Virus record (IMG/VR): IMGVR_UViG_3300032242_000235
Coordinates: 1-21,581 of that record
Source of the DNA: a virus
Direction: 5' to 3' (one strand)
Length of the DNA: 21,581 nucleotides
The notes under the pieces were generated by a model. It ran no database searches. It saw only the letters and a program-made list of their open reading frames with translations, and had not been told where the DNA came from. The translations under genes and the position numbers were made by a program. Below, in pieces: positions 16,972 to 20,982 of this stretch; within the stretch, counting starts at the first letter, position 1; each line of letters starts with the position of its first letter.

Positions 16972-17510
16972 GTGTCAGGCCTCCTTGAGATTGTACAGAT
17001 TGTGCTGTGCCGTCAGATTCTGGAGTATGCATGTATTAGCATGTATCTATTATATATGGTAGCGAATATATAATCTTTACAATGTTAGCATGGAACACCG
17101 AGAAGGCTATTCAGATAGGAAACCTTCAATGAGTCTATATCTTACTCCATCAATTGGGATATAGAACATGCGTTGCTGAGATGTTAAATGATTTTAAGTT
17201 TAATAATCTCACTACAGACCCATAAATAACTTATAGGGCAACCGGTGTCACATAGTAACTAAAGACGTTGACTGTGTGGGGTATAGATGGCAAAGGACGA
17301 CGGGCAGGGCAAGTTTTTCCATTGGTAGTGCTTAGACTGCACTACCATGGCTTCTAAGCGGCAAATAGTATTAAAGCATATAAGATATGCCTAAAGTAAT
17401 TAAGAGTAAAGGAAGAGTTGTAAGACTAACCGAATCTAATTACGAACGAAGTGAGTAATTAGAGAAGGTTAATGACCGAAGGTCATTCGTAATGACTTAG
17501 GGCTTAATGA
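16972..17510 (+). ncRNA. Candidate large structured RNA of unknown class (about 540 nt)
   Basis: No convincing ORF exists on either strand between the nuclease and gp51, but hairpins are dense. Examples: 17049-17074 (9 bp); 17102-17127 (gaagg/ccttc with an inner 4-bp stem); 17134-17165 (8 bp); 17177-17211; 17249-17278 (11 bp with one G-U pair and one bulge); 17319-17350 (12 bp with one bulged T); 17376-17390 (6 bp); 17436-17462 (8 bp, then tandem G-A pairs and an inner AC/GT stem), enclosed by 17428-17431/17467-17470; 17471-17487 (7 bp). A further pairing, 17390-17397 with 17495-17501, closes a multibranch domain. Purine-rich loops and the tandem G-A suggest the plus strand. Its size recalls the large phage RNAs GOLLD and ROOL, but I cannot confirm either. 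I see no tmRNA, RNase P or group I intron core. A perfect TATAAT lies at 17069-17074 without a good -35, so the 5' end is uncertain. Confidence 0.55.
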
Positions 17511-17533: not shown

Positions 17534-17710
17534 TTAGAAGAATGGTAATCCTGATTTCTTTGTAGTTTCCATATTTTCTCCTATGAGTTTAGTAATCATA
17601 TTACGTTCATCAATACTCATATTCATCACATCGGTATAACTAACACCACCTCTCATATGCCATGTCAGTTTTAGTGCATGGGATTTTATGGTGTTTACAT
17701 CTTTTTCCAT
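17534..17710 (-). CDS. gp51: gp51-like baseplate hub assembly protein, probably made by -1 frameshift
   Basis: Short protein of 58 residues from the ATG at 17710, with the pattern HALKLTWHMRGGVSYTDV, MSIDERNMI and a C-terminal ETTKKSGLPFF. I associate this with the small gp51-type hub assembly proteins that follow gp26 in environmental T4-like phages; T4 gp51 itself is 249 residues. In T4, gp51 and gp26 are needed to assemble the hub but are not in the finished tail. There is no good ribosome site before 17710. The same frame stays open upstream for 18 more codons, back to a slippery heptamer at the end of gp26. The main product may therefore be a gp26-gp51 fusion of about 351 residues. The gene number is moderately sure; the coding frame is well supported. 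Confidence 0.7.
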   Translation of the reverse strand: MEKDVNTIKSHALKLTWHMRGGVSYTDVMNMSIDERNMITKLIGENMETTKKSGLPFF

Positions 17711-17719
17711 GTCTGATAA

Positions 17720-17770
17720 AAGGCTCTTAATTTCTTCGGAATTAAGAAATAAAAGCCTTAATCGAAAAAA
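17720..17770 (-). promoter_or_regulatory. Candidate programmed -1 frameshift site: T_TTT_TTC plus stem-loop
   Basis: On the minus strand the gp26 codons AAT TTT TTC GAT TAA contain the heptamer T_TTT_TTC (17770-17764) in the correct X_XXY_YYZ phase. Four bases later a stem-loop begins: AAGGCT (17759-17754) pairs with AGCCTT (17725-17720), and CTTAATT (17746-17740) pairs with AATTAAG (17732-17726), leaving a 7-nt bulge and a 7-nt loop. A -1 slip reads CGA TTA AGG and continues without a stop into gp51. Confidence 0.7.
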
Positions 17771-18588
17771 TTTGATACGTTAATTACAAATGATTGTTCA
17801 TACTCATGTTTGCAATGTATACATGAAATTTGTAATGGTTTTGCCTCAGATTCCGATCTGAGTTTAATATTAGTTTCTTTGATTTTATTGAATATGTTCT
17901 TATCACAATTTCTTAAGAATTCTTCAATATGTTCAGTTTCAAATACTGTGGCATTAGGTGTCTTAACATATTCAATTGTGGATAGTAATAGTTGAACAGT
18001 CATCTCATTCAACTTTTTAATCAAGTCAGTGGTCTGTCTACCTCTTTCTAAATCATCTTCCATATTTTGTAGATTTGACATCATGCGCTGTACTTCAAAT
18101 TGTAATATATTAGATTCGTTGATTTCACTATATAACAAAGGTTTAAACTTTACTTGTAAATCATTTACGGTAAGTAGCATACTATAATCACTAGGTTTAA
18201 AGTTAGCTAATAATCCGGTAAGGTTTACATCATACTTTGCTTCTTCTTTACAACTTGGGCAACTAGTTTCAATTTCCATTTTATCACCGTTACTGGCGGC
18301 ACGAATAGCAATTAGTATAGGGTCTAAGTCAACAACTGGTATACACCAGGGGTCTAGTATATTAGGTATACAACTTTTTATAATGTCTGCTACTGCATTA
18401 CCATTAAACAATGCGTCTGGAGTCTTACTAGTTATTTCATCAATTGTGGTCATTGGGTAAACCGGAACTTCACCGTTTTCAGGTAAGTTAATAGATCCTT
18501 CTTTATATCCGGCTCCACCGCTAGGTAATTTTAGGTATATTGCAGGTCTACGAAAATATTGACGTAATGGGTTAACTGTATCGTTCAT
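17758..18588 (-). CDS. gp26: Baseplate hub assembly protein gp26-like (tail assembly chaperone)
   Basis: Probable member of the T4 gp26 baseplate family, which in T4 is needed for hub assembly. The 276 residues begin with a short basic segment (LRQYFRRPAIYLKLPSGG), typical of this family. Two CxxC pairs, Cys110/Cys113 (SCPSCK) and Cys256/Cys259 (SCIHCK), probably form a zinc ribbon around a helical middle domain. The ATG at 18588 has a strong ribosome site (GAAGGAT), and a late promoter lies 51 nt upstream. The C-terminus (NVSNFFD) contains a slippery heptamer that can move ribosomes into the gp51 frame. This short/long pair next to a tape-measure-like gene is the layout of tail assembly chaperones in long-tailed phages. 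Confidence 0.8.
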   Translation of the reverse strand: MNDTVNPLRQYFRRPAIYLKLPSGGAGYKEGSINLPENGEVPVYPMTTIDEITSKTPDALFNGNAVADIIKSCIPNILDPWCIPVVDLDPILIAIRAASNGDKMEIETSCPSCKEEAKYDVNLTGLLANFKPSDYSMLLTVNDLQVKFKPLLYSEINESNILQFEVQRMMSNLQNMEDDLERGRQTTDLIKKLNEMTVQLLLSTIEYVKTPNATVFETEHIEEFLRNCDKNIFNKIKETNIKLRSESEAKPLQISCIHCKHEYEQSFVINVSNFFD

Positions 18589-18639
18589 TTTTAATCCTTC
18601 TTTTGGTTGGTTTTTTTATACTAAATAATAGATGTACTA

Positions 18640-18672: not shown

Positions 18673-20982
18673 ATGGTAGCAGCAGTAATAGGTGCAATTG
18701 AAGAAGCCTTAGGGACACTTGGTGTCAGCGCCGGCGAAGCGGCAGCCGGTGCAAATGCTGCTGGTCAAGGATTAAATGACCTCGAAAAGGCTAGCGGGGG
18801 TGCTAGTAGTCAACTTAAGAATAATTTTACACAAGCACTTAAACAGTCTAAAGAAACAGTAAACAGCCTTGAGGAGTCCATCAGAGAACTACAAGGTGGT
18901 GTTAAAAAATATGAAGGTGCAGTAGGTGATGCCGGACTTATGGCTACAGCCTTTACGGCTGCTATTCAAGCCCTAATTCCGGGTATGCAAGGTATAGCAG
19001 TTGCTACCTTATTCGCTGGTAACGCATTAACTAGTTATGCAAAATCATCATTAAAACAACAAGATTTGTTAGTAAAAGGATACCAATCATTAAGTGAGTT
19101 TGGTGCATTAGATCCTTCTGGTTTACGTGGAGTATTAGATAGTGCTAAAAATGTAGGTGCAGTACCAGAAACAATGGCCTTCATGTTAGAAACTATTACT
19201 AAGAATAGTCAACAGTTAGCAAGTTTTGGCGGTACTGTAAACGAAGGTGGTAAAATACTAACAAGAACTGTAGACAAATTGTTAGAACCCTCTGACGACT
19301 ATTTTAGAGTACTAACAAATTTAGGTTTTACTACTGAAGATTTAACAAAATTTACTGCAGGTTTTATTTCAGTTAACTCAAAATCAATAAGAGGGATGGC
19401 AAATGATGAAGCTGCTCTTAAAGTACAGACTAACCAATATTTAGAAACATTGACTGAGTTAGCAGAACTTACCGGTGTGAGCCGTGACCAACAACTAAAA
19501 GCGGCTCAAGAGTTACAGCAAGAAGTTGAATGGCGTCAATATCTAAGAGAACTTGCAAAAGAACCAAACGGTGCTGAAAAGGTTGCAGCAGCTAACTTAA
19601 TGATGGCTGCCATTGTAGAAAAACAAGGTAAGGACATGGGACACGTTCTCAAGGACTTTGTTATTAACGGTGCTGCAACAACTGGAATGTCAGCACAATT
19701 GCAAGGTGCGCTTGGTGGCGCAGATAAAATGTTTAGGCAAACTATTGCAACTGGCGGTGATGCTACTATATCAGTGGGTAGAATGGTAAATGCAATGGGT
19801 AAAGGACAAGATGCATATATAGAGGCTATGGGTCCCACACTAAAAATTGCAGGTGCTGCTAAAGATGTATATGTTACCTCTAAAATGTTTGACAATGCCA
19901 TGAATACTGCTACCGGTGATGTTGCCAAAGCTATAAAAGACAATACCGATAAAATTAAAAAAGAGGGTGATGACAGATTAAACATGCAAGCAAAACTTCA
20001 ACAAACAGAGCGTACATATGCTTATGTTTATCAGGAGTTATATTTTGCATATGGAAAATTAGCAACCGGCGCGGTTACTATATTTTCAGATTTGTTAATA
20101 GCTAAGGCTAAGGCGATAAATGCTACTGTACCTGGATTTGATGCATCAAAAGACATTGCAAGGTATGATGCAATGGTTGCTAAAGAAAAAGATGCAAATC
20201 TAGCTAGAGCAAGAGAAATTGCAAACAAACCAGAAAATCAAAAATTTGCAAAAAGTCCATTAACAAAAGAAGAAGCTATTGCTTTATTAGATAATCCAAA
20301 TAAAATTCAAAGAGAAAGGGATATAAAAGACTTTGGTGGTTTAGAAAGATTACAGACTATTGCTGGTAGAGCAATTGATACTGCAAATAAAGCAACTGAG
20401 AATGCCGACAACTCTAGAAAATTACTTGATAATAAAATTAATATAAAACCCGGAGCAGTAATGCCTGGTACTACGGTAGATCCAAGATTAGCTAAAATAG
20501 CAGAAGATTTTACAAAAATGTATCCTAATGCTAGACTTACCGGATACAATGAAGCAGGAGCACATGCTCCTGGTGGAAAGCATTATAAAAACAGTGCTAT
20601 GGATTTAGCATTAGAACAAGGTCATAATTATACACCTGCTGAAGTTAAGCAAATGACTGCAATGTTAAAACAATTAGGTGCATCTGTGGTACTTGATGAG
20701 ACTAAGAAAAAAGAAGGACCTCATTTACATATTGAAATAGGTGATAATCCTGCTAAACAAGTAGAACTGAATAATAAAAAAGTATCTATGACTGTACCAA
20801 CGTATAAACCAGATGATACTAAAACTGCTAGTGTAACAGATACTAGACCCGCTTTCAATAACCAACAATCTAATAACGATAGTATAATGGTTGTTGCTAA
20901 ATTAGATGAATTACGTACAATATTTAACCGATCACTAGGTGTACAAGAAGAAATTCTATCTTATACTAAGCAACACGCATAA
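18673..20982 (+). CDS. Tape-measure-like tail protein with C-terminal M15-type peptidase motif
   Basis: Probable tail tape-measure or tail-lumen protein with a cell-wall hydrolase module. Residues 1-80 are Ala/Gly-rich and helical. A hydrophobic stretch lies at ~86-120 (a possible membrane-inserting segment), and ~120-580 is long and mostly helical. Residues ~610-690 show an M15-type zinc peptidase pattern: KHYKNSAMDLAL gives His637 and Asp644 with the 7-residue spacing of VanX-type enzymes, and EGPHLHIEI gives Glu681 and His684. M15 enzymes cut peptides in peptidoglycan. At 769 residues it is compatible with a T4-sized tail (T4 gp29 has 590). The ATG at 18673 has GGAA about 8 bases upstream. 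It is divergent from gp26/gp51 and directly before portal gp20. The tape-measure role is inferred; the peptidase motif is clearer. Confidence 0.62.
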   Translation: MVAAVIGAIEEALGTLGVSAGEAAAGANAAGQGLNDLEKASGGASSQLKNNFTQALKQSKETVNSLEESIRELQGGVKKYEGAVGDAGLMATAFTAAIQALIPGMQGIAVATLFAGNALTSYAKSSLKQQDLLVKGYQSLSEFGALDPSGLRGVLDSAKNVGAVPETMAFMLETITKNSQQLASFGGTVNEGGKILTRTVDKLLEPSDDYFRVLTNLGFTTEDLTKFTAGFISVNSKSIRGMANDEAALKVQTNQYLETLTELAELTGVSRDQQLKAAQELQQEVEWRQYLRELAKEPNGAEKVAAANLMMAAIVEKQGKDMGHVLKDFVINGAATTGMSAQLQGALGGADKMFRQTIATGGDATISVGRMVNAMGKGQDAYIEAMGPTLKIAGAAKDVYVTSKMFDNAMNTATGDVAKAIKDNTDKIKKEGDDRLNMQAKLQQTERTYAYVYQELYFAYGKLATGAVTIFSDLLIAKAKAINATVPGFDASKDIARYDAMVAKEKDANLARAREIANKPENQKFAKSPLTKEEAIALLDNPNKIQRERDIKDFGGLERLQTIAGRAIDTANKATENADNSRKLLDNKINIKPGAVMPGTTVDPRLAKIAEDFTKMYPNARLTGYNEAGAHAPGGKHYKNSAMDLALEQGHNYTPAEVKQMTAMLKQLGASVVLDETKKKEGPHLHIEIGDNPAKQVELNNKKVSMTVPTYKPDDTKTASVTDTRPAFNNQQSNNDSIMVVAKLDELRTIFNRSLGVQEEILSYTKQHA

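Follow-up and report, generated by a model that had tools for sequence, protein, structure and literature searches.

The stretch of DNA analysed here, referred to below as the window, is a 21.6-kb IMG/VR record, and all positions and strands refer to it. The closest relative found was a 367-kb contig carrying a gp26 that is 79 % identical to the one in the window, and hence the window is a fragment of the genome of a jumbo T4-type phage. The product of the gp26-like gene matches PF12322 T4_baseplate with 73.6 bits (curated cut-off 24.5, E 2.5e-20) and also phrog_150, baseplate hub (E 1.9e-20), and its AlphaFold2 model has a mean pLDDT of 87. On the minus strand, the gene ends with TCA AAT TTT TTC GAT TAA, which places the heptamer T_TTT_TTC in the phase needed for a -1 slip; it has the form X_XXY_YYZ, in 0-frame phase, of a canonical -1 site. 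The -1 frame reads FF-RLRLLFLNSEEIKSLLSD-MEKDV...LPFF. The coordinates and phase of the heptamer were given correctly in an initial annotation made from the sequence alone, as was the absence of stops over the 18 codons up to the next ATG, and the frame in fact stays open for 76 codons past the slip. Translation yields 276 aa for the short form and 351 aa for the joined long form, in agreement with the sizes proposed there. The extension is predicted to be helical (pLDDT 83). Fold searches with the models of the short form and the extension found no match in the PDB, and neither did the profile. The features of the locus are listed in Table 1.

Table 1. Features of the gp26 locus and its surroundings, in window coordinates
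Feature	Position	Strand	Basis or remark
gp26-like gene encoding the short form (276 aa, two CxxC motifs), N part of the tail assembly chaperone (TAC-N)	17758..18588	-	PF12322, phrog_150, AlphaFold2
gp26 stop codon TAA	17760-17758	-	
gp26 ribosome site, AGAAGGA upstream of ATG	18589..18605	-	
T_TTT_TTC slippery heptamer, in phase for a -1 slip and separated from the gp26 stop by one codon	17764..17770	-	In phase in 79/79 distinct sequences
Two-part stem-loop past the heptamer; the main stem starts at 17759 after a four-base spacer and may be prolonged by 3 bp at its base	17715..17763	-	
Putative extension in the -1 frame (76 codons past the slip), encoding the C part of the chaperone (TAC-C, 'gp51')	17537..17764	-	Stop TAA 17536-17534
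Internal ATG, earlier taken for the gp51 start, 18 codons past the slip	17708..17710	-	Without SD, not conserved
Large gene divergent from gp26, candidate tape measure	18673-20982	+	Position
Conserved non-coding stretch of ~350-400 nt, between the RusA-like gene and the end of the -1 extension	16972-17380	+	Conservation, covariation

Two of the neighbouring features deserve comment. The product of the large divergent gene matches no Pfam or PHROG family. Its positional counterpart in RaK2 carries an annotation of similarity to a tape measure, the Pfam match there reaching only E 0.36, and a large structural-type gene lies at the equivalent position in several jumbo phages. Most relatives of the branch have the non-coding stretch on the other side in the equivalent position, with roughly 68-92 % DNA identity; of the 78 distinct gp26 loci besides that of the window, 62 gave a match, and several of the remainder lack the flank. 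Its consensus fold has 75 pairs, of which 31 show compensatory double changes, a number reached by none of 500 shuffles; when the partners were slid by 1-3 columns only 3-6 such pairs were obtained. A 5' motif of this RNA was present in >119 viral stretches and in no bacterial genome contig. No Rfam family was matched at the gathering score, weak sub-threshold matches appearing only at E<=5. From its conservation and covariation, the stretch looks like a large structured phage RNA that is unannotated and undescribed.

As a bare string, the heptamer is unremarkable in the window, with 5 copies found and 7.2 expected, and since it is not rare there the window sequence by itself is weak evidence and the case is carried by conservation. 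A megablast search of the junction against the phage collection found no match and protein-level searches were therefore used. A consolidated set of 79 distinct sequences was made up of the window, its IMG/VR relatives down to ~30 % protein identity, PA5oct and RaK2. All 79 have TTTTTTC in the same phase near the end of gp26 together with an open -1 frame, and the extension is 76 codons long in 75 of them. Elsewhere in the 21,392 gp26 codons of this set, in-phase TTTTTTC does not occur even once. Where Phe-Phe is encoded, NNT TTT TTC would arise with a chance of 0.074 per sequence, to be read with the proviso that the 79 sequences share ancestry and are not independent. The eight bases TTTTTTCG are invariant in 75 aligned sequences, with third codon positions around the site varying freely. 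Hence the comparison of junctions that had been suggested in the initial annotation turned out in its favour, and neither a stop in the -1 frame nor the loss of the slippery site was found in any relative of this branch that was examined.

The same arrangement is found further afield. A poly-T heptamer and an open -1 frame are present in all 11 further named jumbo phages (Phosso, PBECO4, XaC1, GAP32, SCTP-2, XacN1, Munch, BF, Kaldavass, CBB and Vibrio 2.275.O), the heptamer being T_TTT_TTC in ten and T_TTT_TTT in XacN1. The cyanophages S-PM2 and P-SSM2 have T_TTT_TTC, and the pelagiphage HTVC008M T_TTT_TTT, each with an open -1 frame, and in 70 of 70 further cyanophage-type loci, making 73 cyanophage or pelagiphage loci in total, T_TTT_TTC lies three bases ahead of the stop and the -1 frame is again open. 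Of 70 cyanophage gp26 loci, 67 carry an SD-like GGAGGG/GAGGG element roughly ten bases ahead of the heptamer; it resembles the upstream stimulator of dnaX and is too distant from the gp51 ATG to serve it. In a remote gp26 relative, from Bacillus phage SP-15, a C-terminal extension lies in the +1 (or -2) frame and not in the -1 frame, and this phage was kept out of the comparison.

The two-part stem-loop reported to begin four bases past the heptamer was also recovered. Positions 17759-17744 pair with 17736-17720, with one bulge and a loop at 17743-17737, and in the window sequence the minimum free energy is -16.9 kcal/mol (z -2.9 relative to dinucleotide shuffles). Whether the stem is conserved had been left to comparison with relatives. 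RNAalifold applied to the junction produced neither a column-wise consensus stem nor column-wise covariation, because the pairing registers shift between relatives, and a test using synonymous shuffles that keep the -1-frame protein was applied instead to the 45 nt past the heptamer, a z below -1 being counted as more stable. In 66 of 70 relatives this segment was more stable than its synonymous-codon shuffles (mean z -3.3). Control windows in gp26, up to 180 nt upstream, gave z of about 0, and some windows further downstream of the stem reached -0.8. Thus, stability beyond what codon usage accounts for is a conserved property, and a downstream structure at the short spacing of a canonical -1 site is present, though its four-base spacer is rather short.

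The sequence past the slip site behaves as coding sequence from the outset. Over the first 18 codons, before the ATG of the window is reached, the share of synonymous changes among codon differences is 38 % in the -1 frame versus 12 % and 7.5 % in the other two frames, and per-codon-position entropy shows a coding pattern from the first codons. The -1 frame thus appears to evolve as a protein from the slip site itself, ahead of any start codon. This bears on the possibility that gp51 is a gene in its own right, whose translation starts at the ATG (17710) either coupled to that of gp26 or by reinitiation behind it. The initial annotation had taken this ATG for the gp51 start. An ATG is indeed found at codon 18 past the slip in 53 of the 79 sequences, and the cyanophage loci, where an ATG is at codon 3, are annotated as separate gp26 and gp51. 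However, the internal ATG is not conserved. An ATG is missing from the first 30 codons in 21 of the 79 sequences and from the first 40 in PA5oct, and 12 sequences have none of ATG, GTG and TTG within the first 25. An SD-like 4-mer precedes the internal ATG in only 1 of 53 cases versus 73 of 77 loci for gp26, in line with the earlier remark that gp51 lacks a ribosome site of its own. Protein-level selection on the frame begins upstream of any start, and a separate gene leaves both heptamer and stem unexplained. A gene with its own start is therefore very improbable, and the ATG at 17710-17708 is probably an internal Met codon.

Slippage of RNA polymerase on the T6 run, in place of ribosomal slippage, would yield identical proteins, and the homopolymer run is invariant. 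However, six T are short for efficient transcriptional slippage, and conservation extends to the final C and to the stem downstream, which fits tandem slippage on the ribosome, so that we consider there to be at best a slim chance that the frame is changed during transcription. Though homopolymers are prone to error, the idea that a mistake in sequencing or assembling the T run split one gene in two is refuted by the recurrence of the arrangement in the 79 distinct sequences, the 11 further named phages and the 73 cyanophage or pelagiphage loci, and its probability is negligible.

A programmed -1 frameshift that produces a 276-aa short and a 351-aa long chaperone from one recoded gene, composed of gp26 and the -1 frame downstream, is by far the best reading of the locus and is held with high confidence. 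Counting against it are the short spacer, the pairing register of the stem that shifts between relatives, the neighbouring gene, which sequence searches did not identify as a tape measure, and the failure of both structure models to match a solved structure. The majority of ribosomes would terminate at the gp26 TAA and release the TAC-N chaperone of 276 aa, the counterpart of gpG in lambda and gp26 in T4. A minority would be stalled by the stem-loop four bases downstream and slip back one base on T_TTT_TTC, the P-site codon changing from TTT to TTT and the A-site codon from TTC to TTT, both read by the same Phe tRNA. Translation of 76 more codons would then give the fusion of 351 aa (TAC-NC), which corresponds to gpGT of lambda and gp51 of T4, and 'gp51' in these phages would be the C-terminal part of a frameshift product. 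The two forms may load and guard the tape-measure protein during tail assembly. At the level of sequence, the locus has what defines a TAC-N/TAC-NC pair, namely a short form and a C-terminally extended form reached by a frameshift at the 3' end of the gene; that slippage takes place, its rate and the role of both forms are what we infer from this.

The relationship to the two T4 proteins was examined by profile comparison. Both gp26 and gp51 of T4, each listed as a hub assembly chaperone (PMC3004832), match PF12322, and gp51 has an extra C-terminal domain that matches the extension. The gp51 of cyanophages (phrog_634) matches the C-terminal part of T4 gp51, and when wide alignments were used the extension family matched the C-termini of cyanophage and Straboviridae gp51 over 33 columns with an hhalign probability of 86 % (E 5e-6); a narrow alignment of the C parts gave a weaker match. 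Hence, the short product corresponds to T4 gp26 and the frameshifted product to T4 gp51. The initial annotation had proposed gp26/gp51 as the T4-type counterpart of lambda G/GT, and for this branch the heptamer, the open frame and the homology to gp51 support that view. It does not extend to T4 itself, where genes 26 and 51 are separate and divergently transcribed and gp26 has no slippery site, its Phe-Phe being kept as TTC TTT with a stop met at once in the -1 frame. The heptamer is also absent from three other Straboviridae with separate gp51. A frameshift shared by T4 was therefore rejected.

Rather, the two T4 genes look like a short copy, gp26, which has lost the heptamer, and a separate long copy, gp51, and the fixed long form of T4 would derive from duplication of a frameshifting gene. 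A broader scheme, which we favour with some reservation, is that T4-type and jumbo phages inherited one recoded chaperone gene, in which the slip site was retained but the helpers differ, a downstream stem-loop in jumbo phages and the upstream GGAGGG-type element in cyanophages, and that in Straboviridae the gene was duplicated into gp26, which lost the slip site, and gp51, which fixed the long form.

In lambda, the short and long forms, G and GT, both arise from a single gene through a -1 slip at the 3' end (PMC5009743). The likeness to the present locus is in obtaining a short and a long chaperone from one gene; the slippery sequence is different, and the large structural neighbour gene is divergent here, unlike in lambda. 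The slippery sequence of lambda is G_GGA_AAG, and that of phage P2 E / E+E' is reportedly T_TTT_TTG (Christie and colleagues, 2002). The P2 case resembles this one in that it involves a contractile-tailed phage and a poly-T heptamer. The T4-like tail assembly chaperones treated by Vladimirov, Gautam and Davidson in 2022 appear to represent the same gene family and the same idea as presented here, and pieces of the scheme above may already be found there. Its abstract is said to describe frameshifting as conserved in several T4-like groups and T4 as using genes 26 and 51. The initial annotation knew of no description of such frameshifting for gp26/gp51, yet poly-T -1 slippery sequences in the TAC-N genes of T4-like phages are treated as known in another paper (PMC12846349), which cites the 2022 study (Virology 566:9-15) for them. 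That paper also describes, for Vandenendeviridae and Andersonviridae, a conserved -1 frameshift that annotation had missed, TAC-N there ending in a GTTTTT motif; these are other phage families, and the passages on them contain no stem analysis.

Slippage was marked in none of the annotated records examined, which either list a separate small gene or leave the stretch past gp26 blank. In the reference genomes PA5oct (L004 3350-3570) and RaK2 (L005 3353-3545), the chaperone C part is unannotated. Though frameshifting in tail chaperones is already known from many phages, the jumbo-phage case appears to be new and, on the comparative data, is very well supported. It settles the nature of the short ORF past gp26 across large groups of jumbo and marine phages. 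In addition, frameshifting phages can be set beside T4, where two genes appear to have taken over from the frameshift, a natural contrast that would help to test why it matters how much short chaperone is made relative to long.
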